DNA of 41,502 nt from NCBI GenBank assembly GCA_016208255.1, contig JACQYK010000087.1:1-41502 (forward strand). Reading direction: 5' to 3'. The notes beneath the pieces are model-generated. The model was not told the origin of the DNA, did not search any database, and saw only the letters and a program-made list of their open reading frames with translations. This stretch comes from Deltaproteobacteria bacterium (lineage in GTDB: Bacteria; Desulfobacterota; RBG-13-43-22). Position numbers and translations under genes: made by a program. Within the stretch, counting starts at the first letter, position 1. The number at the start of each line of letters is the position of its first letter. Shown here one piece after another: positions 8,460-29,206 of this stretch.

Positions 8460-9170
8460 ATGCCAACCATTACCTATCTTATATTGGTCCCCATGGTTTA
8501 TCTGGCCTTTCTGGTTTTTATCGTCGGGACGGTCATTCAAATTGCCCGGATCCGTCGGGCTCCTAAAAATCCGGCCACCCTGCAGATCTTTCCGGAAAGG
8601 AAACCGAAATGGCTCTGGGCCCTCCACGACAGCTTTCTGATGCCCACCCTCCGCCGCCACTACCCGCTGCGCTGGGTTATTCTGATGAGCTTTCATATCG
8701 CTTTGCTGCTTCTGATCATCGGCCACCTGGAGCTCTTTAAGGGTTTTACCTTTTTTCAATTCTGGGAGCATGAGATCTTTCTGGGAAAAGGTTTTGTCGG
8801 TCTGGCCCTGTCTTTGGCCCTGCTTTACCTCCTCTTCCGGCGGTTTCACTCCCCGGCCCGGGATCTTTCCGTGCCCGAAGATTATTACCTGCTCATCCTG
8901 CTTTTTCTGACCGTGCTCTTTGGCGCTGAAATGGACTGGGCCAGGCGCTGGTACGGCTATGCTGAATTGTCTCCAGGAGACTATCAAACCTATATGACCG
9001 GCCTGCTGCTTTTCCGGCCCGAGCTGCCCGTGGCTGTTTATCAGACCGGCCATTCCTTTATGCTGGTCTTGCACGTCTTTTTTGCCAATCTCTTTATTAT
9101 GCTGTTCCCCTTCAGCAAGATCATGCATTCCATTTTCAGCATTTCTTTGAACAAATTAAGGAGGGGTTAA
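8460..9170 (+). CDS. NarI/DsrM-like membrane cytochrome b subunit
   Basis: A 236-residue membrane protein with about five to six hydrophobic segments, similar to the gamma subunit of respiratory nitrate reductase and to DsrM/HdrE. Candidate haem-ligand histidines are in FHIALLLLIIGH (about 76-87), and in QTGHSFMLVLHVFF and KIMHS near the C-terminus. It would move electrons between the menaquinone pool and the iron-sulfur protein encoded 2 bp downstream. GGAGG at 8450-8454 supports the start. Confidence 0.85.
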   Translation: MPTITYLILVPMVYLAFLVFIVGTVIQIARIRRAPKNPATLQIFPERKPKWLWALHDSFLMPTLRRHYPLRWVILMSFHIALLLLIIGHLELFKGFTFFQFWEHEIFLGKGFVGLALSLALLYLLFRRFHSPARDLSVPEDYYLLILLFLTVLFGAEMDWARRWYGYAELSPGDYQTYMTGLLLFRPELPVAVYQTGHSFMLVLHVFFANLFIMLFPFSKIMHSIFSISLNKLRRG

Positions 9171-9172
9171 TC

Positions 9173-10426
9173 ATGGATGCCCAAACCGGAAACGATCTGT
9201 TGAATCTTTTTCAATCCAAATTGAACCAGGCCATGAGGTTCTATCTGGAGACCTGCACCCGCTGCGGGACCTGCACCGAGGCCTGCCACGTCTATGCCTC
9301 CCTGGGCCAGAAAAAATACATCGCCTACTACCGGCATGAAATCGTCCGCCGGCTCTATAAAAAATATTTCAAGGGCCGGATGAATCCCTCGACCTTTCTG
9401 GGGGAACCCAAGGAATTGACCGACCTGACCATGGAGGAACTCTATGAAGCCGCCTATTCCTGCACGGGCTGCCGTCGCTGCATGGTCTTTTGTCCTTACG
9501 GCATCGATACCCAGATGCTGATGTCCATTGCCAAGCTCTTATTGGTCGGCAACAAATCGGAACCGGAAATCCTGTCTATGCTGGCTGACCTTTCTATTGA
9601 AAAGGGCAAGTCCTTGGAGATGTTTAAAGAAGGTTTTCTCACGGCCATAAAGAACCTGGAATCCCAGGTCGTAGAAAAATGGAAAAGCGAGGCCGGTCAA
9701 ACCCCTATCCCGGTGGATCAGCAGGGGGCCGATATGCTCTACGTGGCCCTGGCCGGGGCCCATTCGATTGTCCCGGCAGCGGCCGTTTTTAATGCCGCCA
9801 AAGAGAACTGGACCTTGAGTTTTTTTGAGGCGGTCAACTTCGGGGCTTTTCTCGGAGACCCATCCCGGACCAAACTGATCTTAGATCGGATCATCAAAGA
9901 AGCAACCCGTCTCCGGGTCAAAGAGGTCTGTATTTGCGAATGCGGAACGGCCTTCCGGGTCATGAAGCAGTTATCCGGGAAGCAGCCCTTCCAGGTCACT
10001 TCCATCACCGAGGTCCATGCCCGTTATCTGAAGGAGGGAAGAATCAAACTGGACAAGAATAAATTCAAAGATCCTATCACCTATCACGATCCCTGCCAGA
10101 TCGCCCGGAATGCCGGAGTGATTGATGAACCCCGGTATATTTTACGGCACTTGACCCATGATTTTCGGGAGATGATCGATGACGTCCGCTATAATTGGTG
10201 TTGCGGCGGGGGAGGCGGATTGGTGGCCCTGGGTGAGGACAACCTGGATTTTCGCATGAAATCAGCCAAAGTCAAGGTGGATCAGGTCAAAAAAACCGGG
10301 GCCAGGATTCTGGCTACGGCCTGTGAAAACTGCCACACCCAGCTCAGTAATTTAAACGACCATTATCAAATGGGAATGAATGTTCAGTTTCTTTCCTCCA
10401 TGATAGCCGAGGCCCTGGTGGCTTAA
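9173..10426 (+). CDS. HdrD/DsrK-like iron-sulfur oxidoreductase subunit
   Basis: A 417-residue cytoplasmic protein with a ferredoxin-type N-terminal half. Cluster one is CTRCGTCTEAC followed by H (Cys 28, 31, 34, 38) and cluster two CTGCRRCMVFCP. The C-terminal half has two CCG-type domains. The first is reduced (CICECGTAF); the second is complete (YHDPCQIARN, WCCGGGGG, CENCHTQL) and would hold the non-cubane [4Fe-4S] site of HdrD/DsrK. With the NarI-like partner it forms a two-subunit DsrMK/HdrDE-type complex. Coexpression with DsrE and TusA suggests that a protein-bound persulfide or trisulfide is the redox partner; this is inference. GGAGG precedes the start. Confidence 0.88.
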   Translation: MDAQTGNDLLNLFQSKLNQAMRFYLETCTRCGTCTEACHVYASLGQKKYIAYYRHEIVRRLYKKYFKGRMNPSTFLGEPKELTDLTMEELYEAAYSCTGCRRCMVFCPYGIDTQMLMSIAKLLLVGNKSEPEILSMLADLSIEKGKSLEMFKEGFLTAIKNLESQVVEKWKSEAGQTPIPVDQQGADMLYVALAGAHSIVPAAAVFNAAKENWTLSFFEAVNFGAFLGDPSRTKLILDRIIKEATRLRVKEVCICECGTAFRVMKQLSGKQPFQVTSITEVHARYLKEGRIKLDKNKFKDPITYHDPCQIARNAGVIDEPRYILRHLTHDFREMIDDVRYNWCCGGGGGLVALGEDNLDFRMKSAKVKVDQVKKTGARILATACENCHTQLSNLNDHYQMGMNVQFLSSMIAEALVA

Positions 10427-12316: not shown

Positions 12317-13096
12317 TTATCTTCTTTCAAACTCCCGGGCCACCAGTTCCAGATCCTTCATCCCCTCATAAGCGACGATGACTTCATCGAAACCCGCCTT
12401 TTCCAGGTCCGTTATCAGTTCGGTCAATCCATCCGGGGATCGAACCGTATTAGGGAAAAAATCCGGTTTGGCCAGGGAGAAGGGAACCAGGACCGCTACC
12501 GGAAGAGGGTGGTCTCCAAGATACCGATGCCGCAATTCGTCGGTTTTTTCGCCCCGGATTGTAGAAACCCCGTCGGCAATCCGGGCAGCCGTTTCCCAGC
12601 CCGAAGGACCCATGGCCGCCACATAAAGGGGAATTTTCTTTTTCGGCGGTTCCGTCCTCAAGCGGACGGCATCCAATCGAAAAGCCTCTCCTTCAAAACT
12701 GGTTCGTTCTCCATTGGTCAGGCGGCGGAGGATGGTCAAGCATTCCTCCAGGGCCTTTTCCTGCTGTTTTATCCCGGCTTTTTCCAAAAAACGGGCGATT
12801 CCTTTGCCGAGGGAAAGTGTCAATCTCCCATTGCTTAGAAGCTGAAGCGTGCAGGCCATTTGGGCCATAACCACCGGGTGCCGCGTATAAGGGTTGGTCA
12901 CACCGAGACCGATATTCAGCCTGGAAGTATGGTGGGTGATCAGGGAAGCCACCAGCCAGGCTTCCCAGGGGGAAACCACCGTATCCGGGACCCAGACCCG
13001 GTAAAATCCCTTATCTTCAAGAAGGCTGGCCTGTTCGATGACCTCTGCCAGGGGACAGAGATGGGATAATTCAGCACTGATTTTTATTTTGGACAT
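12317..13096 (-). CDS. luciferase-like (F420/FMN-dependent) oxidoreductase
   Basis: A 259-residue TIM-barrel protein of the bacterial-luciferase superfamily. Recognisable parts are ASLLEDKGFYRVWVPDT (strand/helix 1-2), LVASLITHHTSRLNIGLGVTNPYTRHP (about 48-74, the phosphate/cofactor loop), LSLGKG and IPLYVAAMGPSGWETAARIADG. The pattern resembles F420-dependent methylene-tetrahydromethanopterin-reductase-like members more than two-component luciferases. It is about 60 residues shorter than typical Mer-like proteins. AAGGAAG precedes the start. It is isolated from pathway partners, so neither substrate nor flavin type can be assigned. Confidence 0.82.
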   Translation of the reverse strand: MSKIKISAELSHLCPLAEVIEQASLLEDKGFYRVWVPDTVVSPWEAWLVASLITHHTSRLNIGLGVTNPYTRHPVVMAQMACTLQLLSNGRLTLSLGKGIARFLEKAGIKQQEKALEECLTILRRLTNGERTSFEGEAFRLDAVRLRTEPPKKKIPLYVAAMGPSGWETAARIADGVSTIRGEKTDELRHRYLGDHPLPVAVLVPFSLAKPDFFPNTVRSPDGLTELITDLEKAGFDEVIVAYEGMKDLELVAREFERR

Positions 13097-15557: not shown

Positions 15558-17054
15558 ATGGGTTCGGAAACGGAAAACCAGTACTTCTTAAAAGCCGTTG
15601 AGGCCTTTAAACGACGATTCGTCGTAATTTCCCCGGAGCATATAATTTTGGCGGTCAACGACCCCGGAGAGGGATTGGATCATTCCAGTGTTATCGGAAA
15701 GATTTGTCACCAGGTTTTTTATAATCGCCCGGAACCCTGCCTCCCTTGTCCTATTCAAAAATCAAAAGAAACAGGTCGCCCGGCCCTGCAGCCAAAAACG
15801 GGAGATTATACCGACCCGGCGGAAATCCCTTGCCTTTATGTCTACCCGATTTTCAATCAGAACAGCCAGGATAACAGCATTGAAGCCTTCGTCAGCCTGG
15901 ACTTCGACCTCTCCACTCGTGGTGAGTTCGAAGACAAGGCCCAGAGTTCAAATGCCTTTCTTCGCAACCTGATCCTCAGTGCCGTGGATGGGGTCATAGC
16001 CGCCGATAAAAAGGGCCGAATCCTGATTTTCAACGACATGGCCGCTGAACTTTTCGGTTATAGTGTAGAAGAGGCCATGGAAAGCCTGGACATCCGGGAC
16101 ATCTATCCCGATCACAAGGAACTGGAGGTCATGAAGGCCCTGCGCAGCGATGACTACGGGGGCCGGGGTAAACTCCGCTCCTACGAAGTGGAAGTTCTCC
16201 ACAAGAACGGTGAACACATCCCCATCAATTTGAACGCCTCCATCGTCTATGAAGGGGATCGGGAAGTGGCCACCATCGGTTTTTTTCATGACCAGCGCGG
16301 AATCAATCGCATGAAGGCGGAACTGGAGAAAACCCAGATGCAGCTGCTGCAATCGGAAAAGATGGCCTCCCTGGGCAAGCTGGCGGCCGGCGTGGCCCAT
16401 CAGCTGAATAACCCCTTATCCGGCATCACCCTGTTCACCAAATTGGTCCTGGAAGAATACAACCTGGAAGAGGGTGCCCAAAAAGACCTTTTTCGGGTGA
16501 TGGAGGATGCCGAACGCTGTCGGGACACCGTTAAGGAATTACTGGAATTCGCCCGCCAGACCAAGCATATCAGACGGCCTCATGATATTAACCGGGCCAT
16601 TTCCCGGACCCTTTTTTTGTTGGAAAATCAGTCGCTGTTCCAGAACATTATCATCGAAAAAGAACTGGACCCGACTTTGCCGCCCGTCCACAGCGACATC
16701 CAGCAACTGAACCATATGTTTATGAACATTATTTTAAACGCCGCCCAGGCTATGGAGGGGAAGGGCCGATTGCAGATTAAAACCCTCTTCCTTCCGGAAA
16801 AGGAACAGGTCCGCATCGAAATTTCAGATACCGGCCCGGGTATTCCCGATGAAATCCTGTCGCATATCTTTGACCCCTTTTTCACCACTAAGCAGGAGGG
16901 GGAGGGCACCGGACTGGGATTGAGCCTGGTTTACGGGATCGTCCAAAATCAGGGGGGGGAAATTAAAGCCCGGAACCTCCCGGGTGAAGGAGCGACCTTC
17001 ATCATCGACCTGCCCATTATGCCGAAGGACGACGGAGGAAGCCGAAGTGAATAG
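15558..17054 (+). CDS. PAS-PAS histidine kinase with N-terminal cysteine motif
   Basis: 498 residues, soluble. The N-terminal PAS-like domain (about 15-115) carries [19 protein letters not shown] with Cys50, Cys61 and Cys64, a motif common in PAS sensors of anaerobes that may bind a metal, haem or Fe-S cofactor. A second PAS lies at about 132-252 and a coiled linker at 252-270. HisKA has His281 in [12 protein letters not shown], followed by HATPase with DTGPGIP and [15 protein letters not shown] precedes the start. A 161-bp gap separates it from the upstream gene, but it overlaps the next kinase by eight bases. Its partner response regulator is unknown; the receiver-bearing kinase downstream is the obvious candidate. 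Confidence 0.92.
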
Positions 17055-18540
17055 AGAGGTCGAGAGAATAAAGATTCTGGTGGTGGACGACGAACGGGAC
17101 ATCCGGGAAGCTTCGGAACGTATCTTAAGCCGCCTTGGTTTTCAATTGGTTACAGCTAAACGCGGGGAAGAGGCCCTCCAGATCTTCGAAGAAGCCCACC
17201 CGGCCATCGTCCTTCTTGATTTAAAGATGCCGGGGATGGATGGGATGGAGGTTCTCAAACGACTCCGGGAAAAGGACCCTTCCCTGCTGGTGATTGTAAT
17301 CACCGGCTATGCCACGGTTGAAACGGCCATTGAGGCCATGAAACAGGGGGCTTATGATTTTATTTCCAAGCCCTTTGAGCCGGACCAACTGCGCATCGTC
17401 GTTAACCGGGCGGCCGAAAAAATCCGCCTGACCAGGGAGGCCCAAAAGCTGGAACAGGAAAAAACAAGAACCTTATCCGATTTGGATACCGAAAAGAGCC
17501 GCCTTCGCACCATCATTGAATCCTTGCCGGACGGCGTCATGGTCACCAACACCGGCGGTCAGGTGGTGCTGATCAACCCCTCCTGCAAACATATGCTGAG
17601 GTTGTCCCCGGAAACGGTGGCCGGCCGGCCTATCCAGGACTATGTCCTGGATGAATCCCTGTGCAAACTGGGCCTGGATATTTCCAAAGGGAAATACGTG
17701 GATTATGGGGATATCCCCGAACACGAGTTCACCCTGACCGATGGGACCTACCTGCGGGCCATAGCCCAGCCGGTATTGGGTGAAAGAAAGGAGTGTCTGG
17801 GGGCCATTATCAATTTCATCGATATCACCTCCATGAAGACCCTGGACCGGCTAAAGTCTGAATTTGTGGCCAAGGTTTCCCATGAATTGCGGTCTCCTCT
17901 TTCCACCATTCACGAACAGATCGCCCTGGTCGTCGGCGACCTGGTGACCAGTCATCCCCAACAGCACCAGCACCTGCTGTCCCGGGCTAAGGAGAAAACC
18001 CAGGGGTTGATTTCTTTGATCGGTGATTTGCTCGACTTATCGCGCATCGAAGAAGGGATCACCGGCCGGAAACCGGAACCGGTTCGGGTGGAAGAATTGT
18101 TAAAAGGCATCGTTGATTTCCTATCGACCAGGGCCTCGGCCAAAAACCAGACCCTTTCCCTCCAGGTCTTGTCACCCAACTTGCCGGAAATCAATGCCGA
18201 CCCCTTGGCGCTGGAAAGCATTTTCGGAAACCTGATCACCAACGCCATCACCTATACCCAAGAAGAGGGCCGCATTCGGGTTGAATTGGACCGGGCCGGA
18301 ATCAATCTCAGGGTTAAAGTGGTGGACAACGGCTTCGGCATCGACGAAAAATACATCGACAAAATTTTCGATCGCTTTTACCGGGTCAAAGATGAAAGAA
18401 CCCGTTATATCACCGGGACCGGGCTTGGACTACCCATCGTCAAGGGATTGGTGGATTCTCTGGGGGGGATCATAGAGGTTAGCAGCACGCTGGGGGAGGG
18501 ATCAACCTTCACCGTCCTGCTTCCGGTCCAACAGAGTTAA
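17047..18540 (+). CDS. REC-PAS-histidine kinase (paralogue)
   Basis: 497 residues with the same order as the kinase at 13461: REC (phosphoacceptor Asp58 in LLDLKMPGMDG; TGYATVE; SKPF), coil, PAS (about 145-265), HisKA with VSHELRSPLS, HATPase with DNGFGID and GTGLGLPI. I chose the GTG at 17047: it has GGAGGA seven bases upstream and overlaps the previous gene by eight bases. The longer frame from 16984 would start inside the previous HATPase domain. Its TAA stop is the first triplet of repeat R1a. Inference: the three kinases form a relay in which REC domains receive phosphate from partners. Confidence 0.92.
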   Translation: MNREVERIKILVVDDERDIREASERILSRLGFQLVTAKRGEEALQIFEEAHPAIVLLDLKMPGMDGMEVLKRLREKDPSLLVIVITGYATVETAIEAMKQGAYDFISKPFEPDQLRIVVNRAAEKIRLTREAQKLEQEKTRTLSDLDTEKSRLRTIIESLPDGVMVTNTGGQVVLINPSCKHMLRLSPETVAGRPIQDYVLDESLCKLGLDISKGKYVDYGDIPEHEFTLTDGTYLRAIAQPVLGERKECLGAIINFIDITSMKTLDRLKSEFVAKVSHELRSPLSTIHEQIALVVGDLVTSHPQQHQHLLSRAKEKTQGLISLIGDLLDLSRIEEGITGRKPEPVRVEELLKGIVDFLSTRASAKNQTLSLQVLSPNLPEINADPLALESIFGNLITNAITYTQEEGRIRVELDRAGINLRVKVVDNGFGIDEKYIDKIFDRFYRVKDERTRYITGTGLGLPIVKGLVDSLGGIIEVSSTLGEGSTFTVLLPVQQS

Positions 18541-18628
18541 ACCGTCATGTCCCGTCAGGGACGTGACACCACGAATCATGGAAATAGATAGGATCAAAGA
18601 GTAGCCTCGAATCCTATTTTCGTATCAA
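18538..18628 (+). repeat. R1a: two-hairpin TAAACCG element
   Basis: It begins with TAAACCGTCA, whose TAA is the kinase stop codon, and ends in CGTATCAAA, whose TCA is the minus-strand TGA stop of the AroE-like gene. Hairpin 1 arms are GTCATGTCCC/GGGACGTGAC. The spacer ACACCACGAATC follows, and hairpin 2 arms are ATGGAAATAG/CTATTTTCGT. Other copies lie at 27519, 31858 and 34100. Confidence 0.85.
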
Positions 18629-19464
18629 ATAGGGTCTTGACCTTCTCCCCCGTTCTCGTGTAAAGCGTTTAGAAACTCCTCCGGGGGGACCTGTAATCCG
18701 GTCCACAAGGCAAAGGCCCTTCGGGCCTGGTAAGCCAAAGCCGACAAACCGTCCATGAAACGAATGCCTTTGGCCCGGGCCAGCTCTTCCCAAAAATTTC
18801 TGGGGCGTCCATAATTAAGGTCAAAAACCAGCTCACACCCTGGAATTTCGAGTTGGCTCACCAGATCAGCCATTTCCGGGGATTCGTCACTGCTGGAAAC
18901 AGCGGTGGCATTGACGACAATATCCACGGGTAGCGGACGCTCGGAAAAAGAGGAAAGGTCCAGCGGTTCTCCCCCCAAGGTGTTAATGAGGCTTCTGGCC
19001 TTTTCCATTTGACGCCCGGCGACAAAAATGGTGGCGGCCCGCAACCAGTTTAAAATAAACACTACCGCCCTGGCCGCGCCACCGGTTCCGAATACCAGCG
19101 CCGACTTTCCATCCACCTCAAATCCCGCCTCCGTCAGGGCATCCATGACACCGATGGCGTTGGTATTATACCCCTTCAAACGATCCCCGTCCCGAACGAT
19201 GGTATTGACCGCCCCGATGATATTGGCCCCCTCGGAAAGGACATCCAACAAAGGGATAACGGCTTCCTTATAGGGAACGGTAATGTTGGCCCCCGCCATA
19301 TGTAATATCCGGATACTCTGAATCGCCTGTCCGAGATCCTGGGGTTTGACGACGAAGGGGACGTAGGTCCCGTTAATCCCCTGTCTCTTCAAAACCCTGG
19401 AAAACATGATCGGGGATTTTGATTGTCCCGCCCGTTCGTCGCTGAGGATACAGAAGACCTTCAT
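18625..19464 (-). CDS. AroE-like (shikimate/quinate dehydrogenase family) protein with altered active site
   Basis: 279 residues. The N-terminal substrate domain has SKSPIMF, ANITVPYKE (the catalytic Lys is present) and GAVNTIV. The C-terminal Rossmann domain has FGTGGAARAVVF, a basic residue after strand 2 (AGRQMEKA) suited to NADP, and the closing YQARRAF motif. The family's catalytic Asp, normally in NTDG, is Asn here (GYNTNAIG, codon AAC), so normal shikimate dehydrogenase activity is doubtful. It lies beside the MetF/Hdr cluster, not other aromatic-pathway genes. It may be an AroE paralogue acting on another substrate. The start has no strong ribosome binding site. Confidence 0.8.
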   Translation of the reverse strand: MKVFCILSDERAGQSKSPIMFSRVLKRQGINGTYVPFVVKPQDLGQAIQSIRILHMAGANITVPYKEAVIPLLDVLSEGANIIGAVNTIVRDGDRLKGYNTNAIGVMDALTEAGFEVDGKSALVFGTGGAARAVVFILNWLRAATIFVAGRQMEKARSLINTLGGEPLDLSSFSERPLPVDIVVNATAVSSSDESPEMADLVSQLEIPGCELVFDLNYGRPRNFWEELARAKGIRFMDGLSALAYQARRAFALWTGLQVPPEEFLNALHENGGEGQDPI

Positions 19465-19558: not shown

Positions 19559-19948
19559 TTAAAGCCCCAGCAATCTCTTCAGACTTTTGCTGATTTCTTC
19601 GGCGGAAGCCGGTTTACTGATATAATCATCGGCTTCCGTAGCCATGCCGTCGTAGTGGGAATAGCGGGTGGAGGTCACATGAGAGGCCACGGCTGTCAGC
19701 AGGATAATAGGGATATCCCTATATTGGTCATCCTTTTTGAGTTCTTTGCAGACGGCATATCCGTCTTTTTCAGGCATCATCACATCCAACACAATGGCAT
19801 CGGGCGGATTGGAACGAACCTTTTCCAGACCTTCCACTCCATTGTAAGCCACCTCGACTTTGAAACCCTCTTTTTCCAAATTACCCTGGACGATGGTTGC
19901 GAAATCCGGTTCATCGTCCACGACTAAAATTCTCTTTGGCTGATTCAT
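19559..19948 (-). CDS. single-domain response regulator
   Basis: 129 residues, receiver only. It shows ILVVDDEPDF with the acidic pair, phosphoacceptor Asp in VLDVMMPEKDG (about 54), Thr in LLTA and Lys in SKPA. The loop after LLTA is longer than usual (ASHVTSTRYSHYDGM) and is shared with the regulator at 30004. No DNA-binding domain follows. I prefer the second of two adjacent ATGs because GGGAGGG touches the first. It is probably a phosphate shuttle or protein-binding output for nearby kinases. Confidence 0.9.
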   Translation of the reverse strand: MNQPKRILVVDDEPDFATIVQGNLEKEGFKVEVAYNGVEGLEKVRSNPPDAIVLDVMMPEKDGYAVCKELKKDDQYRDIPIILLTAVASHVTSTRYSHYDGMATEADDYISKPASAEEISKSLKRLLGL

Positions 19949-20057
19949 CATGCCCTCCCTGTCTAGCTCCCATTAAGTTACAAAAATTGTTAACGATTCA
20001 ACGTCATTTTTGAAGACCGGTTTAAGGTGCAAAGCGGGTATGAATTTTCTGCCTGTA

Positions 20058-20099: not shown

Positions 20100-21032
20100 T
20101 TATTCCACCTTCGGTCTCGGATATAGACCCGCCCGTTCTACGATTTCAGGGACCATCTCCTCCCATTCAATGGCCATGATGTGAAATCCGGCCACTCCTT
20201 TAACTTCTTTCAGACGTTGGATGGATTCAATACAGATTTTGATCCCCTCTTCGGCCTGTTTTTCTTTGGGGGTATCCGCCAGACGCTTGACGACCGCATC
20301 CGGCACATCCATACCGGGCACCCGGTTCTTCATGTAGCGGGCCATCCCGGCTGATTTCATCGGGGTCAACCCGGCCAAAATATAAACCTGTTCGGTTAAT
20401 CCCCGGTCCCGGGCCTTGCCCAGCCAATCTTCGAATTTGTCGAGATTATAGATGCATTGGGTTTGGATAAACTCGGCCCCGGCGGCCACCTTCTTGGCCA
20501 GCCTCGGCACACGGATTTCATAAGGATCGGCAAAAGGATTGGCCGCCGCTCCGACGAACATCCGTGGAGGACGTTGGATCGGGTCCCCCCCCAGAAACTT
20601 GCCCTCGTCCCGCATATGTCTGACCGTCTGGATGAGCTGCATCGAATCGAGGTCATGAACATTCTGTCCCTGGGCACAGTCTCCGAAACTTTGATGATCG
20701 CCGGAAAGGCAGAGCAGGTTATGGATGTCGAATGAGGCCGCTCCCAAAATATCGCTTTGAAGGGCGATTCGGTTGCGATCCCGGGTCACCATCTGCAAAA
20801 CCGGTTCGAGGCCCATCAGCTTAAGGCGAATACAGGCGGCCAGACTGCACAAACGGGTCATGGAGGTCTGGTTATCAGTTACATTGATGGCGTCGACATG
20901 ATTTTTTATCATTTCGGCCTTACGGACAATCACTTCTGGATCACTGCCGCGGGGGGGGCCGCATTCGGAAGTGACAGCCATTTGTCCGGAAGCCAAAATT
21001 TTTTCCAGTTTACTCGGGGTTTTGGCCTTCAT
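20100..21032 (-). CDS. metF: methylene-tetrahydrofolate reductase, MetF
   Basis: A 310-residue TIM-barrel protein with MetF signatures: TSECGPPRGSDPE at the N-terminus (substrate-side Glu), INVTDNQTS, LQMVTRDRNR (flavin-binding region), LCLSGDH, and FIQTQCIYNLDKF. It reduces methylene-THF to methyl-THF, the methyl branch of the Wood-Ljungdahl pathway. Its ATG overlaps the metV stop by four bases (ATGA), so the two are coupled and probably form a MetFV heteromer. A second MetF paralogue heads the same cluster at 26572-27441. Confidence 0.93.
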   Translation of the reverse strand: MKAKTPSKLEKILASGQMAVTSECGPPRGSDPEVIVRKAEMIKNHVDAINVTDNQTSMTRLCSLAACIRLKLMGLEPVLQMVTRDRNRIALQSDILGAASFDIHNLLCLSGDHQSFGDCAQGQNVHDLDSMQLIQTVRHMRDEGKFLGGDPIQRPPRMFVGAAANPFADPYEIRVPRLAKKVAAGAEFIQTQCIYNLDKFEDWLGKARDRGLTEQVYILAGLTPMKSAGMARYMKNRVPGMDVPDAVVKRLADTPKEKQAEEGIKICIESIQRLKEVKGVAGFHIMAIEWEEMVPEIVERAGLYPRPKVE

Positions 21033-21697
21033 AGCTTCAAATCCTCCCTGATCACTTTTCGAGGTCCGCCGGCCCGTTCGCTGGACCAGTCTTTAATAGG
21101 GGTTATTTTTTCATAGTCGTCCATACGACCCAAAGCCTTCAGCCGGTCGATGATCAATTGCCAGCCGCAGGGGACCTCCTTACTGATCTCACATTTGCCG
21201 GCCGTCGATCCGCCGCAAGGTCCGTTCAGGATCCGCTTGGCGCAACGGGAAACCGGACAGATGCCCCCCGAAATGGCCAGCAGGCACTGGCCACAACCCT
21301 GGCAGCGTTCGGACCAGATCCCCCGGGCTTCGTTGGCCCCCATGAACAGAGTGTTCACCCCGGGATAAACCGGTTTGGTCTGATACTTCTCGGCGGTAAA
21401 TTGGACTCCGACCCCGCAGGCGATTGACACCACCGACTCGTAGTGATCGATGCTGTCCCGGATCTCCTCCAGGTACTCATGATCGCACTGGCGCTCCAGG
21501 GTCCTTTCTCCGATATTGACCTCCCGCCCTTGCTGCAAAAAATGCATACGGAGAGCGGAGGCCAGAAGTCCCACCTCCTTCTTCCCTCCCACCTCACAAA
21601 CCGTGACACATTCATTGCAACCTAAGACGAGAATGCTTTGACAGTCTTTGACGTAATCAATGATCTCTTCTATCGGCTTTTTATCAGCTACAATCAT
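21029..21697 (-). CDS. metV: MetV, iron-sulfur/zinc partner of MetF
   Basis: 222 residues of the MetV (methylene-THF reductase C-terminal-like) family. Cysteine motifs are GCNECVTVCEVGG (about 26-38), CQGCGQCLLAISGGICP (about 131-147) and GPCGGSTAGKCE (about 158-169). In Moorella, MetV holds Fe-S clusters and links MetF to HdrABC/MvhD. GGAGG at spacing eight supports the start. It is downstream of mvhD by 49 bp and coupled to metF. It is the clearest sign that the neighbouring Hdr proteins serve methylene-THF reduction. Confidence 0.9.
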   Translation of the reverse strand: MIVADKKPIEEIIDYVKDCQSILVLGCNECVTVCEVGGKKEVGLLASALRMHFLQQGREVNIGERTLERQCDHEYLEEIRDSIDHYESVVSIACGVGVQFTAEKYQTKPVYPGVNTLFMGANEARGIWSERCQGCGQCLLAISGGICPVSRCAKRILNGPCGGSTAGKCEISKEVPCGWQLIIDRLKALGRMDDYEKITPIKDWSSERAGGPRKVIREDLKL

Positions 21698-21746
21698 CGC
21701 TATGAACCTCCATTTCCGCGGATCGGCAGACCGGCCTGGAATGCGG

Positions 21747-22220
21747 CTAATGAGCCGTACCGGCGGTTTGGTTCTGACCCGGCTGGGCTTTTTTCTGCTT
21801 TCTTAAAACCTCTCGGATCGGATTCGGCCCGGCTTCGAGAACCCGGGCATGCATTTCCTCGGCAAAACGGGCAAACATGGGGCCATCGCTGGAAGACAGG
21901 TTGTACATCTGCAACCGCTGGCCTCCGATTCCTATAGAGTCCAATATTTTCCGGATTTGTTCCACCCGGGCTTTGGCCCTGAAATTCCCCTTTTCGTAAT
22001 GACAGTCTCCCTCCCGGCATCCCACCAAATACACCCCGTCGGCGCCCTTTTCAAAAGACCGCATGATATGTAAGGCGTCGACTTTGCCAGTGCAGGGAAC
22101 CCGAATGATCTTGATGCTCGTCGGATAAACCAAGCGCATCGAACCTGCCAGGTCCGCGGCTGTGTACCCTCAGAAATTACAACAAAAGGCTATGATGATC
22201 GGTTTAAAATCTTGACTCAT
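21747..22220 (-). CDS. mvhD: MvhD-like [2Fe-2S] subunit with selenocysteine at residue 17
   Basis: 157 residues if the UGA at 22172-22170 is read as Sec. The N-terminus is MSQDFKPIIIAFCCNF-U-GY, then TAADLAGSMRLVYP and KIIRVPCTGKVD. MvhD proteins normally read CNWC-SY..ADLAG here, so Sec replaces the second Cys and makes a CxxU motif. The downstream half (VGCREGDCHYEKGN and so on) is ordinary MvhD. The start at 22220 overlaps the upstream stop as ATGA. Conventional calling would start at 22139 and lose the redox motif. MvhD passes electrons to HdrA. Sec in this family is known from methanogens and some deltaproteobacteria. Confidence 0.9.
22140..22156 (-). promoter_or_regulatory. candidate bacterial SECIS hairpin of mvhD
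   Basis: It begins 14 nt after the UGA. A seven-pair stem CGGACCT/AGGTTCG (one G-U pair) has a GGC loop about 21-23 nt from the UGA and a G at the first loop position, as bacterial SECIS elements usually require. Confidence 0.55.
22170..22172 (-). other. in-frame UGA read as selenocysteine (MvhD)
   Basis: The codon replaces the second Cys of the family's CxxC motif. Homology continues on both sides in the same frame. Confidence 0.88.
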
Positions 22221-23788
22221 AAAGCCCCCTCCAACAAAGTGTCGATCTTGCATAAAAGCTGATCGTCTTCATACCAGTTAAGTTCGATAGCCTTGGCCGG
22301 GCATTCAGCCGCACAGATACCGCAGCCGTGGCACAGGGCCTCGTCAATCTCGCTGAAGCCTTGGGCATTGATCCGGGGCACCCCGTAAGGACAGGACCGG
22401 ACACAGATGAGGCAGGCCGCGCATAAATCGCCCTTGACCTGGGCGATTACGGCCGAAAGGGTCAATTGTTTTCGGGACAGGAAGGTTGTCGCCCGGGAAG
22501 CCGCGGCTTGCGCCTGGGCGATGGTTTCCTTTATCAGTTTCGGACTGTGGGCGCTTCCGCAGACGAAAATCCCTTCCGTGGCCATATCCACCGGACGCAG
22601 TTTGACATGGGCCTCCATAAAGTAACCCTCGGCGGTTTGAGCCAACTTGACGATGGAAGCCAGTTCTTCGTTTTCGTTGGCCACCATTCCGGCACTCAGA
22701 GCCAAAAGATCGACCTTCAACTGCAGGTCCCGATCCAGGATCAAATCCCTGAAAGTCAAAACCAGTCCGTCTTCCGCCTGCGCCACTTGGGGAGGTGATT
22801 CCGGATCGAATCGGAAGAAGACCACCCCTTGCTCCCGGGCTTCTTTGTAATAGGTTTCCAGCAATCCATAGGTCCGGATATCGCGATAAAATATGAATAC
22901 CTCGGCCTCGGGATTCAGTTTTTTTATCTTAAGCGCATTTTTAATGGCACTTTGACAGCAGATGCGTGAGCAATTGGGGTTTTCCTCGTTCCTGGAGCCG
23001 ATGCACTGGATCATGGCCACCCGGTTTAAATTTTGAGCGCCCTGTTCTTTCAGATGCCTGGCCAGCTCCACCTGGGTCATTACTTTTTCGCTCTGATCGT
23101 AATCATATTCACGCGGCCGGTATTCGGAAGCGCCGGTGGCGACAATGGTTACCCCGTGATTGATCTTGCGCTGGTAGGGACCCGGTCCGACCAGCACTTC
23201 GGTGGTGAAGTTGCCCTGGAAACCGGAAAAGCCGACCACTAAAGCCTGGGTCAGCACCTGAATCAGAGGATGGGTCGTCACCCGCTCCATCAGTCCCTTC
23301 AGATAGGTCTGGACATCATCTCCCTCGATGGTGAAAGTCAACCGGTTGGCCATGCCTCCCAACTGTTTTTCTTTTTCAACCAACACCACTTCATACCCCT
23401 GATCAGCCAGGCCCAGGGCCGCGTTCATCCCGGCTACCCCGCCGCCGAGAACCAGGGCCCGCTGGTTGACGGTGATGACTTTCTCTTGCAGCGGATTAAG
23501 GGTTCCGGCCCGCGAGACGGCCATGCGGATCAGTTCCCGGGCCTTATCGGTCGCCTGGCCGGGATCTTCGGAGTGGACCCAGGAATCCTGGTTGCGGATA
23601 TTGGCCATTTCCAGGAGATATTTGTTTAAACCGCAACTCTGAAGGGTATCCATGAAGATGCCTTCATGGGTCTTCGGGGTACAGGCGGCCACCACCACCC
23701 GGTTGAGCCGGTGCTCCCGGATGCTTTCTTTCATGATTTCCAAAGAATCCTGGCTGCAGGAAAACAGGTTTTGTCGGGCGTAAACCAC
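22217..23788 (-). CDS. hdrA: HdrA-like flavoprotein, second copy
   Basis: 523 residues from a GTG. The region [15 protein letters not shown], then NRVVVAACTPKTHEG, matches the HdrA segment that follows the N-terminal Fe-S motif. The FAD Rossmann motif is RALVLGGGVAGMNAALGLA (about 110-128). IQCIGSRNEENPNCSRICC and the FAD-closing region around IFVCGSAHSPKLI follow. Two C-terminal [4Fe-4S] sites are CAACLICVRSCP and CHGCGICAAECP. The usual N-terminal segment with its VCxCG motif is missing, and the gene begins inside the 3' end of the preceding hdrA in the -1 frame (58-bp overlap). It may be the detached second half of a longer fused HdrA. It is coupled to mvhD by ATGA. Confidence 0.82.
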   Translation of the reverse strand: MVYARQNLFSCSQDSLEIMKESIREHRLNRVVVAACTPKTHEGIFMDTLQSCGLNKYLLEMANIRNQDSWVHSEDPGQATDKARELIRMAVSRAGTLNPLQEKVITVNQRALVLGGGVAGMNAALGLADQGYEVVLVEKEKQLGGMANRLTFTIEGDDVQTYLKGLMERVTTHPLIQVLTQALVVGFSGFQGNFTTEVLVGPGPYQRKINHGVTIVATGASEYRPREYDYDQSEKVMTQVELARHLKEQGAQNLNRVAMIQCIGSRNEENPNCSRICCQSAIKNALKIKKLNPEAEVFIFYRDIRTYGLLETYYKEAREQGVVFFRFDPESPPQVAQAEDGLVLTFRDLILDRDLQLKVDLLALSAGMVANENEELASIVKLAQTAEGYFMEAHVKLRPVDMATEGIFVCGSAHSPKLIKETIAQAQAAASRATTFLSRKQLTLSAVIAQVKGDLCAACLICVRSCPYGVPRINAQGFSEIDEALCHGCGICAAECPAKAIELNWYEDDQLLCKIDTLLEGAL

Positions 23789-26559
23789 ATGGGGCAGCCC
23801 CCGTTCCGGACATCGGCCAGTTTAATCCCGGCCAGGCAAGCTGCGGCACTGGCTTCGGTAACCGAACCGGGGATATCCTTAGGTCCCTGAAAGACGCCGC
23901 AGGCATAGACGCCGGGACGGGAAGTTTCAATAGGCGCAAAGGTCGGCGTCTTGACAAAGCCGTATTGATCCAGATCCAAGCTGAGCCGACGGGCCAGTTC
24001 TTTGGATGATTCCGGCACCTGGAGCCCCACGGAGAGGATAATTAGATCAAAGGATTCTTCATGAATCTGGCCGTTTTCATCCGCATAGCGGAGATACAGA
24101 TCCCCTTCTTCAGCAATTTCATCAAGGGAATGAACCCGGGCTTTGATAAAACGCACCCCGGCTTTGTCCCTGGCCCGCAAATAATACTTCTCGTAATCTT
24201 TTCCGAAGGTACGAATATCCATATTGAAAATGGTGCAGTCCAAATCACCCTTGGCATGCTCCTTGGCCATCATGGCATCCTTGATGGCGTACATACAGCA
24301 AACGGAAGAACAATAGCTGTTCCCGCAGTGGTCGGTGTCTCTGGACCCGATGCATTGAAGCCAGGCAATTTTTTGCGGCTCTTTTCCGTCGGAGGGGCGG
24401 ATCAGGTGCCCCTGGGTCGGGCCGGAGGCACTTAGTATCCTCTCAAATTCAAGGCTGGTCAGGACATTGGGATTCCTGCGATATTGATAGAGCCCTTCCA
24501 GAGGGGAAGGGTCGTAGGGCCGGCTGCCCGTGGCCAAGACCACCGATCCGACCTCGATTTCCCTTTCTACCACCGTCTGATTATGGTCAATGGCTTGGGC
24601 CAGACAGACTTCCAGGCATTGGTAGCATTCGGAGCAGACACCGCATTTCAGGCAGCGACTGGCTTCCTGCCGGGTGTCGCTTTCCCGATAACCCAGCTGG
24701 ACCTCGTTAAAATTTTGGATCCGCTGGTCGGCCGGGGCATGGGACACCCTGGCCCGGGCCTGAGGGATCACCCCCTCGAGGGGGACGTCCATGACACCCT
24801 CCCACTGAGCCGGTCGACCCTGCCGGAGATCGAGCCCTTGCAGAAAGCGATCCATAGATAGGGCCGCTTCTTTCCCGGCCCCGATGGCCTCGACCACGGT
24901 TCGCGGACCGCTGACGGCATCCCCACCGGCGAAGATATCCGGATCGTTGGACTGGAGGGTCAGCGGATCGACCTGGAGAGTACCCCAGGCCGTGAGAGCG
25001 CAGGCGCATTCTTCGGTCAGACAGGCCCAGTCGGATTCCTGTCCGATGGCCGGTATGACGGCATCGACTTCAATAAGGAATTCACTCCCGGCGATCGGTT
25101 CCGGACGGCGCCGGCCGCTTTGGTCCGGTGCTCCAAGGGCCATCCGGATACACTCAATGGCCTTGACCCGGCCGGCTTCGGCAATCACCCGTACCGGGTT
25201 GGTCAGGGTCATAATCTCAATCCCCTCGGCCTGACATTCTTCAATCTCTTCGGCATTAGCCGGCATCTCTTCCAGGCTTCGCCGGTAGATAATAAAAGGA
25301 TGGGCGCTGCCGGTACGCCGGGCGGTCCGGACCGCGTCCATGGCCACATTACCGCCACCGACGACAGCCACCCGGTCTCCCAGCTTGATTTTATGGCCGA
25401 GATTAACTTCCCGGAGAAAATCCAGACCCGGATAGACCCCTTCCAGCTCCTCCCCTTCAATACCCAGGGCCTTACAAACCTGGGAACCGATCCCCAGAAA
25501 AAAGGCTTTATATCCCTGCCGCCGCAGTTGCCCGATGGTAAAATCCTTGCCAATCTCCACACCGGTCTTAAATTCCACGCCCAGGTCACGAATGGTCTGG
25601 ATTTCAGCTTCAATGATGGTACGGGGCAACCGGTAGGCAGGAATGCCGACCGTCAGCATCCCTCCCAGAACCGGCAGTTTTTCAAATACGGTGACCGGAT
25701 ACCCTTCCATGGCCAGAAAGTAGGCGCAAGTCAGCCCGGCAGGCCCGGCTCCGATGATGGCCACCTTCTCCGGCTTGGATTCTTTTTTCCGGGGTATAAA
25801 GGGCCGGCCGCTTTTTCGATCCCAGTCGGCCAGAAAGCGGTGAAGATTCATGATGGCCAGGGGATCGTCGACCGACTGGCGGGTACAGGCCGCTTCACAG
25901 GGGTGGTGGCAAACCCGGCCGCAGACCCCGGGGAAAGGATGGTCCTTTTTAAACAACTCCACGGCTTCAGAATATTTTTGGGCATTGATGAGAGCGATAT
26001 ATCCCTGAACGCTCACATGGGCCGGGCAGGTGACCCGGCAGGGAGCGTTTCCCCGCTTGGTGATGGCATACCCGCCGGGGATAGCCTGGGGGTATCTCTT
26101 ATAAGCGGCCTTGCGGCTGGCCAAACCTTCATCATATTCGTTGGGCAGCTCTATGGGACAGACCTTGCTGCATTCACCCCAGCTGGTGCACTTGGATAAA
26201 TCCACAAAGCGGGGTTGCTGCCGGAGCCGGGCCTTGAAAATTCCCGGCTCTCCATCCAGTCCAAGGACTTCGGTATTAGTCAAAATTTCGATGTTCAGGT
26301 GCCGGCCGACCTCGACCAGTTTGGGCGAGATAATTCACATGGCACAGTCATTGGTGGGAAAGGTCTTATCCAACTGGGACATCAATCCACCGATAGCCGA
26401 AGATTGCTCCACCAGATAGACATAGTAGCCGGAATTGGCCAGGTCCAGGGCCGATTGCATTCCGGCGATCCCGCCCCCGACTACCATCACCGAACCGATG
26501 ACCCCTTGACCTTCGTTTCCCACAGGAGGTTTGAAGCCTTTTTCAGTTTTCGATTCCAT
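23731..26559 (-). CDS. hdrA: selenocysteine HdrA with inserted GltD/NfnB-like module
   Basis: 942 residues reading the UGA at 26337-26335 as Sec75. Residues 1-75: FAD motif [16 protein letters not shown], then [16 protein letters not shown], where HdrA proteins normally have Cys. Residues about 124-135: Fe-S site [12 protein letters not shown]. About 165-560: a GltD/NfnB-like insert with [16 protein letters not shown] motif [11 protein letters not shown] and nucleotide motif [18 protein letters not shown], suggesting NAD(P)H. About 650 to the end: the HdrA Fe-S site [24 protein letters not shown] and [17 protein letters not shown]. The last ~20 residues look non-homologous. GGGAAGGA precedes the ATG; metF ends 12 bp upstream. 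It is probably the bifurcating flavin subunit. Confidence 0.9.
26302..26319 (-). promoter_or_regulatory. candidate bacterial SECIS hairpin of hdrA
   Basis: It begins 16 nt after the UGA. The stem CUGGUC/GGCCGG (six pairs, two G-U) carries the loop GAGGUC, which contains the GGUC seen in the E. coli fdhF SECIS loop at a similar distance (about 22-27 nt) from the UGA. Confidence 0.65.
26335..26337 (-). other. in-frame UGA read as selenocysteine (HdrA)
   Basis: The flanking residues DCAM and [12 protein letters not shown] are the conserved HdrA context of a Cys. The frame is open for 74 codons before and 867 after. Confidence 0.92.
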
Positions 26560-26571
26560 TGGTCCTTCCCT

Positions 26572-27441
26572 CTAAATTCCTTCGATGATTTCCGGCAGCT
26601 TATGTTCCCATCCGATCGTGGAAAGATAAACGCCGCTGTATCCCTGATTCTTGAGCTCTCTGGCCATATCGCCTGCGATTTGGACACACTCGCGCACTTT
26701 ATCCGGTGCCCTGCCAATCCGGTCGATAACGGCCTCCGGGATGTGGATATGCGGCAGGTTTCGGACCATATATCGGGCCATCCCCAACGATTTGAGAAGC
26801 ATCACGGTTGGAATGACGGCTACTTTGCCGAAATCAATGCGTTTTTTATAAGGTTCAAGCAAAGTGAGGTCGAAGACAGGAGAAGTGACCAAAAACCGGG
26901 CCCCGGCCTCAACCCTTTTCATCATCTCTTCCACTTCCATCTCCGTTGATTTTCCTTTGGCACCGGCTTCGGTGGTTGAACCGATTAAGAAGTCCGGTGC
27001 ACCGGCCAGTTCAATCCCCGCCATATCCTTCCCCTGGTTAAGACGATTAACCGTTTTGATCAACTCGAAAAGATCGAGGTCGTAGACTGAACGGGCCTGG
27101 TGATGGTCTCCAAAGCTGGGATCTTCTCCACCCACGGCCATGACGGTATTGATTCCCAAAGCATGAGCCGCCAGCAAATCCCCCTGGATCGCCAGACGGT
27201 TTCTGTCCCGGCAGCAAACCTGAAATACCGTCGGCAGATCCTCGTTCTGTAAGACCATGGCCCCTCCCAGGGAACTCATGCGCATTACGGCATTACTCAT
27301 TTCCGGCACGACGTAGGCATCGACTCCTTCTTTAACCCGTTTGGCATTAGAGAGCATCTCAGAGACATCTACCCCTTTGGGCGGCTCCATTTCTGCCAAA
27401 ACAACAAATTCTCCTGTCTCGATTTTGTCCTTTAACCCCAT
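26572..27441 (-). CDS. MetF-like methylene-THF reductase paralogue
   Basis: A 289-residue TIM-barrel protein of the MetF family: VVLAEMEPPKGVDVSE at the N-terminus, VFQVCCRDRNRLAIQ (flavin loop), MAVGGEDPSFGDH, and FLVTSPVFDLTLLEPYKK. It is clearly related to, but diverged from, the MetF at 20100 (for example VTSPVFDL where the other has IQTQCIYNL). It heads the minus-strand Hdr operon with CGGAGG before the ATG. Possible roles are the catalytic MetF paired with the NAD(P)H-type HdrA, or a reductase for another pterin or folate form. Confidence 0.88.
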   Translation of the reverse strand: MGLKDKIETGEFVVLAEMEPPKGVDVSEMLSNAKRVKEGVDAYVVPEMSNAVMRMSSLGGAMVLQNEDLPTVFQVCCRDRNRLAIQGDLLAAHALGINTVMAVGGEDPSFGDHHQARSVYDLDLFELIKTVNRLNQGKDMAGIELAGAPDFLIGSTTEAGAKGKSTEMEVEEMMKRVEAGARFLVTSPVFDLTLLEPYKKRIDFGKVAVIPTVMLLKSLGMARYMVRNLPHIHIPEAVIDRIGRAPDKVRECVQIAGDMARELKNQGYSGVYLSTIGWEHKLPEIIEGI

Positions 27442-27835: not shown

Positions 27836-29206
27836 ATTTCAGCTCGAATACTCATTGTTGATGACGACTGGGATTTTCTCGAATTGATGAAAGCCAGATT
27901 GGCCGGAGCCGGCTTTCATCAGGTCCGGATCGAGGATGACCCCTTAAAAGCGGCAGCTATGATCCAGGCCGAAGAGATTTTCGACATAGCTCTGATTGAT
28001 ATAACCATGCCGGAAATGGACGGGCTTCAGTTGCTGGATATTGTAAAAAACAACAGCCCGAGAACCGAATGCATCATGGTTACCGCGGTAAACGATGTGC
28101 GGGTGGCTGTCCAGTGCATCAGAAAGGGGGCTTACGACTACCTGGTTAAACCGATCAGCGAAGAGGACCTTGTCTTTTCACTCAGGCGGACCCTGGAAAA
28201 AAAGCGGCTTCTTGAGATACTGGACCTTGAAAAAAGAACCGCCCTGCCGGTCCTGTCTAATCCCGAGGCTTTTCAATCCATCCTCACCCGATCACCGTCT
28301 ATGATGCGGTTGCTCAAAGAAGCCGAACTCCATGCCGGCAGCGAGGTGCCAATTCTGATAACCGGTGAAAGCGGCACCGGCAAAGAGCTTCTGGCCCGGG
28401 CGATTCATGCGGTAAGCTCCCGCGCCCGTTACCCCTTCATGCCGGTCAACATGGCGGCAGTCAATGCCGGTCTCTTTGAGGCCGAGTTTTTCGGCCATAC
28501 CCGGGGGGCCTTTACCGGTGCGGAAAAAGAGCGGGTCGGATATTTGAAGCATGCCAATCATGGAACCCTGTTTCTGGATGAGATCGGAAATCTTCCTTTG
28601 GAAATGCAGGGGAAACTTTTGAGGGTTCTGCAGGATGGGGAATATACTCCCCTGGGCTCCAACATCAGCCAGAAGGTTGATGTGCGGTTTATAGCTGCCA
28701 CCAATGAAAACCTGGAGCTGCTGATATCTGGGAAAAATTTTCGCAAGGACCTCTACTATCGTATCAAAGGGGGATGGCTGCATCTGCCGCCTCTCAGGGA
28801 GAGACCGGAAGACCTCCCTCTGCTGGTGGACCATTTTCTGGACGAATACCGGAACGGAGGGACAGGCTGTCACCTTGACGAAGAAGCCTTTGGACTTCTC
28901 CGGCATTACAAATTTCCCGGTAACATCCGGGAATTGAGATCGATCATCCAGTCTGCCGTCAATCTCGCCCAAGGGGGTCCCATTACCAAAGCCATGTTTC
29001 CGGCCCCCCTGCGGGAGATACAACCCGTCACCAGCTATTCAGCAGAAGGAGATTCCCAGGTCATCGTCTCTCTGCCCGAGTATGAAAAGGCCTATATTCT
29101 AAAGGTCTACCGGCAGTTGAATAACAATAAATCCCGTACTTCCCGCCTTCTGGGAATAGGTATGAACACCCTGAGGCGAAAACTGAAATATTATAATATT
29201 CCCTGA
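27836..29206 (+). CDS. NtrC-family sigma-54-dependent response regulator
   Basis: 456 residues if initiated at the AUU at 27836, five bases after a perfect AAGGAGG. The receiver domain needs this start: ILIVDDDWDF holds the acidic pocket and is lost if translation begins at the first ordinary start (TTG 27884). The phosphoacceptor Asp is in LIDITMPEMDG. The AAA+ domain has Walker A GESGTGKE, the sigma-54 loop GAFTGAEKER and Walker B GTLFLDEIG. A C-terminal Fis-type helix-turn-helix (NNNKSRTSRLLGIGMNTLRR) binds DNA. Three dyads precede it. No membrane kinase is adjacent; the soluble kinases in this window are candidate partners. Confidence 0.9.
   Translation: MSARILIVDDDWDFLELMKARLAGAGFHQVRIEDDPLKAAAMIQAEEIFDIALIDITMPEMDGLQLLDIVKNNSPRTECIMVTAVNDVRVAVQCIRKGAYDYLVKPISEEDLVFSLRRTLEKKRLLEILDLEKRTALPVLSNPEAFQSILTRSPSMMRLLKEAELHAGSEVPILITGESGTGKELLARAIHAVSSRARYPFMPVNMAAVNAGLFEAEFFGHTRGAFTGAEKERVGYLKHANHGTLFLDEIGNLPLEMQGKLLRVLQDGEYTPLGSNISQKVDVRFIAATNENLELLISGKNFRKDLYYRIKGGWLHLPPLRERPEDLPLLVDHFLDEYRNGGTGCHLDEEAFGLLRHYKFPGNIRELRSIIQSAVNLAQGGPITKAMFPAPLREIQPVTSYSAEGDSQVIVSLPEYEKAYILKVYRQLNNNKSRTSRLLGIGMNTLRRKLKYYNIP

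Follow-up and report, generated by a model that had tools for sequence, protein, structure and literature searches.

A methylene-tetrahydrofolate (methylene-THF) reductase encoded together with Hdr subunits was reportedly described by Mock et al. (2014) for Moorella thermoacetica, as HdrCBA-MvhD-MetVF. Here we describe a related cluster of six genes in a contig from a member of the Desulfobacterota (Deltaproteobacteria bacterium, assembly GCA_016208255.1, contig JACQYK010000087.1; the whole stretch of 41,502 nucleotides (nt) is called the window in the following). The cluster consists of MetF1, which is a paralogue of the reductase subunit MetF, of a long HdrA with a GltD insert, of MvhD, MetV and MetF, and it is followed by a gene for a stand-alone response-regulator receiver. 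With a probability of about 0.5 we predict from these sequences a methylene-THF reductase of the Moorella kind, either electron-bifurcating or confurcating, which would be regulated by MetF1 together with the receiver.

The comparison with described systems draws on excerpts of the papers cited here and below. As in the window, M. thermoacetica has a long HdrA with a GltD insert and two TrxR-like domains, together with MvhD, MetV and MetF (PMC9430772). The window operon differs from it by lacking HdrC-HdrB and by having MetF1, the receiver and selenocysteine (Sec) sites in HdrA and MvhD (a comparison that leaves aside the Sec status of the Moorella proteins). PMC6085437 regards the complex of Moorella as bifurcating, without identifying its second acceptor. 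Sporomusa ovata (HdrCBA-MvhD-MetVF) resembles the window in its gene set and in having the residue pair E356/K409, which is used to recognise bifurcating HdrA flavins, in one of two HdrA flavin domains, whereas Moorella keeps the pair in both; unlike the window it has HdrBC and no GltD insert, and the excerpts mention neither a MetF1 nor a receiver (PMC9430772). HdrL of Desulfobacterium autotrophicum is likewise a fusion of HdrA with a glutamate synthase part, with Sec in HdrL1 and HdrL3 and MvhD encoded next, but there dsr genes follow HdrL1-MvhD, and no MetVF is named beside an HdrL in the excerpts (PMC2702500). In the archaea, Ca. Syntrophoarchaeum has MetFV, HdrA and MvhD in one cluster and ANME-1 has HdrA/NfnB fusions in which the NfnB insert lies in the ferredoxin domain of HdrA, as it does here; for neither is a MetF1 or receiver mentioned in the excerpts (PMC9012536). 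Finally, in Seep-SRB1g, a further member of the Desulfobacterota, metF adjoins hdrABC; here HdrBC is present, and MetF1 and a receiver are again without mention in the excerpts (PMC10553843).

The genes and sites of the window operon are located as follows (aa, amino acids):

26572..27441, minus strand: MetF1, paralogue with MTHFR fold, 289 aa, opening the operon (PF02219, 99.6 bits)
23731..26559, minus strand: N-terminal half of HdrA, HdrL type with GltD/NfnB-like insert, 942 aa including Sec (PF07992, PF14691 and related domains)
26335-26337, minus strand: TGA read as Sec in HdrA, within a CxxU motif, aligned to Cys197 of archaeal HdrA (5odc chain A)
24637-26049, minus strand: GltD insert within HdrA
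23802..23803, minus strand: site of about 136 missing nt and of a frame shift relative to the database protein P0126 (length derived from the linker in P0126, which has 46 residues)
22217..23788, minus strand: C-terminal half of HdrA, in the window an open reading frame of its own from GTG at 23788
21747..22220, minus strand: MvhD (PF02662, 158 bits)
22170-22172, minus strand: TGA read as Sec in MvhD, aligned to X in 9sfi_K, which is taken as Sec
21029..21697, minus strand: MetV (PF12225, 125.4 bits)
20100..21032, minus strand: MetF, MetV-partnered catalytic subunit of methylene-THF reductase (PF02219, 125.3 bits)
19559..19951, minus strand: stand-alone response-regulator receiver (PF00072, 90.2 bits)

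All six genes of the cluster, from MetF1 to MetF, were located by open reading frames and Pfam matches on the minus strand, and the sequence itself was inspected for their start, stop and Sec codons. All MTHFR, FlpD and DUF5981 matches in the window are above the Pfam cut-off; a comparison of MetV with solved structures gave no match at E 0.001. Purine-rich stretches resembling ribosome-binding sites precede MetF1, HdrA, MvhD, MetV, MetF and the receiver; at the GTG at 23788, unlike at these other starts, such a site is not clear. MvhD, MetV and MetF are adjacent and co-directed with HdrA, as in the Moorella-type reductase. An earlier note on this DNA had proposed the same six-gene order with ATGA couplings. 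The genes are indeed found at these positions and the overlaps HdrA/MvhD and MetV/MetF were verified, with 12 nt between MetF1 and HdrA, but what had been called a second HdrA is the C-terminal half of a single one (see below). The note had also missed the receiver gene: the conserved unit extends beyond position 20100 to the receiver and, in many loci, to a shikimate-dehydrogenase-like gene.

For a survey of gene order we used the best 80 of 368 relatives. These loci were all found through similarity to MetF1 and are not a sample of HdrA-MetVF clusters at large. Fifty of them reach MetF, and 47 of these keep the order MetF1-HdrA (with GltD)-MvhD-MetV-MetF; therefore, this order, which the earlier note had suggested to look for in relatives, is not a chance arrangement. 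By segments, 45 of the 50 show HdrLn-GltD-HdrLc-A2n-A2core-A2fd-MvhD-MetV-MetF after MetF1 and two more have HdrLn in two pieces; the exceptions are L047, without GltD, L091, with HdrC-HdrB and no GltD, and L112, with two HdrA-MvhD sets and no GltD. The remaining loci either end early with HdrA as the next gene (23) or have no recognised next gene (7). Among 297 evenly sampled genomes from the phylum, a set which overlaps with that of the related loci, 84 have a MetF1 match at E <= 1e-62, 32 of them at E <= 4e-95 and at least 51% identity. When identical MetF1 DNA was removed from the combined sets, 119 distinct MetF1 loci above 200 bits were obtained. The gene next to MetF1 is HdrA in 98 of these, a receiver in 9, HdrC-HdrB-HdrA in 2, a histidine kinase in 2, HdrB in 1 and none that was recognised in 7. 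The cluster is present in strains with culture names as well (Desulfonema magnum 4be13, Desulfatibacillum alkenivorans DSM 16219) and is common to many relatives of sulfate-reducing bacteria.

MetF1 is also associated with the receiver. A receiver gene follows MetF in 66 of the 69 testable MetF1-led HdrA clusters (two further clusters were too short), on the same strand and 18–286 nt past the MetF match, measured between matched regions. It also follows in 7 of 7 lower-scoring MetF1 clusters (<=300 bits), none of which has GltD. For comparison we chose 40 MetV loci by eye, taking contigs for which no MetF1 had been listed. One of these, L241, proved to contain MetF1, and it has the receiver. 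Among the other 39, MetF adjoins MetV in 34, and the receiver is found in 2 of the 34 although HdrA lies upstream in 26; with the same 700-nt tail as in the main set it is found at 2 of 32 MetV-MetF pairs without MetF1. Thus, the receiver goes with MetF1 and not with MetVF-HdrA in general. The related genomes are not independent, hence no p-value is claimed for these counts. The phospho-accepting Asp is kept in 59 of 60 receiver homologues, one being not readable by pattern. In nine genomes (L185, L189, L192, L193, L206, L207, L209, L211 and L212) the receiver directly follows MetF1 with no HdrA between them.

MetF1 has the MTHFR fold, yet it departs from catalytic MetF proteins at the two positions of Asp120 and Gln183 of the E. 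coli enzyme, residues which contact flavin and folate. In the window these are Glu and Ser. Across 86 distinct MetF1 sequences the catalytic Glu is kept in 84, but the Asp is lost in 83 and the Gln in 83, and the substituted positions are themselves conserved (Glu in 75, Pro in 73). The MetV-partnered MetF, in contrast, keeps both Asp and Gln in all 62 sequences counted, and that of the window has Glu, Asp and Gln. Since MetF1 has mostly lost this pair, which does not vary among the catalytic MetFs counted, a second methylene-THF site on MetF1 is unlikely. The two MetF paralogues of the earlier note, if read as two such sites, are weakened by this. MetF1 is, unlike the MetF of MetVF enzymes, not adjacent to MetV in the window; three more distant MetF1-like proteins (L178-L180) do adjoin MetV. 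The own genome has nine MTHFR-family matches. One of its loci (L128, on contig C7 of G000) reads HdrL(GltD)-HdrA-MvhD(Sec)-MetV-diverged MetF1-like-HdrA-MvhD-HdrC-HdrB.

Pseudo-receiver-MetF-MetV fusion proteins are widespread and occur beside MetF1 and the receiver. Seven of the nine loci in which the receiver directly follows MetF1 hold a full-length fusion of about 670 aa (for instance L193:11506-13515 and L189:2783-4810; database relatives P0241-P0360), while in L207 a piece is visible and the contig of L206 stops short; further MetF-MetV fusions, in L207 and L192, match only from residue 150 onward. In the two full-length fusions scanned Pfam reported PF02219 and PF12225, but not PF00072. 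A database search yielded 2087 relatives, with both Pfam domains in all 120 that were listed. The N-terminal domain aligns to the stand-alone receiver with a probability of 99.1% and 28% identity (hhalign), and phmmer gives 41 bits (L193) and 40 bits (L207). In a structure model the N-terminus forms a beta-alpha repeat, from E9-13 to H122-129 (pLDDT 56–91 for these elements, 73.2 for the whole model). Of 119 database members, 118 have Gly instead of the phospho-Asp. The MetF part keeps the Asp and Gln as invariant D255 and Q341; hence each MetF1 has one catalytic MetF at its side in these loci as well. In listings and text passages of open-licence papers we found no account of the MetF1 class, of its receiver or of these fusions.

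The HdrA of the window satisfies the description of an HdrL, as it is interrupted by a GltD/NfnB domain and MvhD is encoded next to it. On the match strand of the 80 related loci 68 pairs of HdrLc and A2n were listed, and in all 68 the two parts are 138–156 nt apart, in frame 0 and free of stop codons. P0126, a database protein of 1256 aa that starts inside the GltD part, spans both halves as one chain; its identity to the window is 98.5% in the first half (683 residues) and 97.5% in the second (523 residues). The window lacks a linker of P0126 that is 46 residues long and contains the CNCG motif of the second half; two bases of the linker segment appear to be retained, giving about 136 missing nt and a frame shift near 23802. 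Two separate HdrA genes are rejected by the in-frame relatives and the single chain of P0126: the relatives examined carry one long Moorella-like HdrA, unbroken across the join, and the supposed second HdrA is its C-terminal half. The break in the window may be a true lesion or an assembly error. Tandem or fused HdrAs, that of Moorella included, show a complementary loss of Cys197 and of the N-terminal domain (PMC9012536). The halves in the window fit this pattern, since the first has Sec at the Cys197 position and lacks the N-terminal domain, and the second has this domain but not the loop with Cys197. The pair E356/K409 is kept in 114 of 114 first halves; among 107 second halves the E is kept in 15 and the K in 96. 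In the window the second half has Ala and Lys here and the pair is intact only in the first half.

Both TGA codons read as Sec lie at a conserved Cys site, the frame is open past the TGA and Cys homologues exist. The CxxU motif in HdrA is one listed for Sec-containing HdrA (PMC9312934). Paralogous copies included, the HdrLn site has U in 94 of 120 copies, C in 15 and is not readable in 11; the MvhD site has U in 78 of 98, C in 18 and is not readable in 2. When 120 listed database homologues were screened with a pattern for the HdrA site, 6 showed Cys and 114 did not match, many of the latter being predicted from after the TGA. The earlier note had made its reading dependent on a Sec machinery, and the genome does contain SelA (634.3 and 492.6 bits), SelB (389.7 and 278.4), SelD (385 and 336) and a tRNA-Sec (78.5 bits), all over cut-off. 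The two copies each of SelA, SelB and SelD (contigs C31, C163, C215 and C101 of G000) indicate either a duplicate machinery or a mixed bin. Folding downstream of the two TGAs gave no signal for a SECIS hairpin (z-scores -0.38 and 0.16). Sec in both electron carriers is not as new as the earlier note had supposed, as Sec-containing HdrL fusions and several Sec MvhDs of D. autotrophicum are in print (PMC2702500), and one Sec HdrA and one Sec MvhD are reported from Desulfococcus multivorans (PMC5109826).

HdrB and HdrC are absent from the window operon, and HdrB lies between MetF1 and MetF in just 1 of 71 MetF1 clusters. The earlier note had regarded the built-in NAD(P)H module as a replacement for external input and HdrBC. 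However, in 6 of the 40 comparison loci (L236, L241, L244, L248, L249 and L251) HdrB occurs upstream of MetV together with a GltD-bearing HdrA, and the Moorella HdrA has its GltD insert along with HdrBC (PMC9430772, section 5). GltD is thus no substitute for HdrBC, and this part of the proposal was rejected; the chassis, the GltD-type module, the two Sec sites and the lack of HdrBC in the operon stand. Three other comparison loci have HdrB without GltD and eight GltD without HdrB. L047, the closest relative, has neither; GltD is present in L048 and in the window, so the NAD(P)H module has been gained or lost among close kin. A search for HdrBC elsewhere in the genome gave 42 CCG-domain matches, not all of which need be HdrB, and contig C264 of the same genome carries HdrB-HdrA-MvhD-MetV-MetF, cut by the contig end on its upstream side.

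In the predicted complex, MetF and MetV would exchange electrons with methylene-THF and methyl-THF, and MvhD would pass them between MetV and the ferredoxin domain at the C-terminus of HdrA. Electron pairs may then be split or merged at the flavin of the first HdrA half, which keeps E and K; exchange with NAD(P)H would take place at the GltD insert, and that with ferredoxin at the ferredoxin domains of HdrA. Sec in the first half would stand in for Cys197, a ligand which one HdrA provides for the N-terminal [4Fe-4S] cluster of its partner (PMC9012536). Given DsrA (611.7 bits) and ACS-type genes in the genome, the physiological direction is probably oxidative, from methyl-THF and reduced ferredoxin to NAD(P)H within acetyl-CoA oxidation, and a coupling of the latter to sulfite reduction is plausible. 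For MetF1 we prefer the interpretation of a paralogue for regulation or docking, which would allow the receiver to tune MetVF. The system bears on the question how the methyl-THF step, which is thermodynamically awkward, is driven forwards and backwards in sulfate reducers and, if the link between MetF1 and receiver is physical, it would mean direct signal control of a bifurcating enzyme of a carbon pathway. In Sporomusa MetF, MetV, MvhD, HdrA and HdrB interact in pulldowns, but a tight complex with MetVF could not be purified (PMC9430772, section 8). The latter result weighs against our reading, as do several others. HdrA is broken in this assembly, so the complex may not form. The residue loss in MetF1 is not uniform in the sequences, as can be seen from four diverged MetF1-like rows that were not counted, with the Asp in 3 of 4 and the Gln in none. 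L069, L203 and L208 lack the receiver despite MetF1, while L233 and L247 carry it without MetF1, and with histidine kinases and NtrC as neighbours the link could be one of shared expression control only. The ACS-type matches (PF03598) are over the cut-off but low (43.7 and 30.9 bits), and with a bin contamination of 7.5% and doubled SelA, SelB and SelD, genome-wide statements may mix organisms.

Among the alternatives, MetF1 might be a working redox subunit whose substrate differs (a C1 carrier, a different pterin or a flavin electron relay), with the receiver for expression control only. The conservation of its altered positions speaks for this, as does a mean column identity of 79% in alignment A1, which was made from the best 120 matches and leans towards high identity; we nevertheless regard it as less likely, as the tie of MetF1 to the receiver is closer than that to HdrA, the receiver directly following MetF1 in 9 of the 119 distinct loci with no HdrA between. 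That two active reductase subunits share one HdrA, with the GltD module in place of HdrBC, is improbable. It would agree with the fold and catalytic Glu of MetF1 and the rarity of HdrB in these clusters, but it conflicts with the loss of Asp and Gln and with the loci, besides Moorella, that have both GltD and HdrB; moreover L047 and seven lower-scoring MetF1 clusters do without either.

The frame shift, the lost CNCG segment and the GTG at 23788 without a clear ribosome-binding site could also mean that the missing 136 nt are a true lesion and the cluster is non-functional in this genome. This is a metagenome assembly, however, and the halves are open apart from the Sec TGA and 97.5–98.5% identical to an unbroken relative, which makes a dead HdrA unlikely. 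Co-inheritance of receiver, kinases, NtrC and MetF1 on one genomic island, with no functional contact to the reductase, would explain the repeated occurrence of NtrC, the kinases and the AroE-like gene near many loci, and two-component genes also flank metF_1 in a Chloroflexi single-cell genome (PMC5736913). Such an origin is improbable in view of the close same-strand position of the receiver right after MetF, its presence also at lower MetF1 scores and the existence of a pseudo-receiver-MetF-MetV fusion family. The regulated Moorella-like reductase remains our preferred reading.

Further genes around the operon are the following:

27884..29206, plus strand: NtrC-type sigma-54 activator, divergent from MetF1
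18625..19464, minus strand: shikimate-dehydrogenase-like (AroE-like) gene (PF08501, 85 bits)
16984..18540, plus strand: receiver-PAS-histidine kinase, convergent neighbour, recurring in many MetF1 loci
15558..17054, plus strand: PAS-histidine kinase, neighbour, recurring in many MetF1 loci

The NtrC-type gene is the nearest upstream match, and divergent, in 39 of the 80 related loci. Scans of the window gave no Rfam match at the gathering score and no tRNA. In 38 of 39 homologues of the AroE-like protein the position expected to hold the catalytic Asp of shikimate dehydrogenase is Asn, and in one it is His, with the Lys kept in 34 of 39; judged by these residues it is perhaps not a shikimate enzyme. 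At 12317-13096 the window encodes a Luciferase-like protein (PF00296), of the superfamily to which the F420-dependent Mer belongs. At 8460-10426 a NarI-like membrane protein is followed by a 4Fe-4S/CCG protein, resembling an HdrDE/DsrMK pair.

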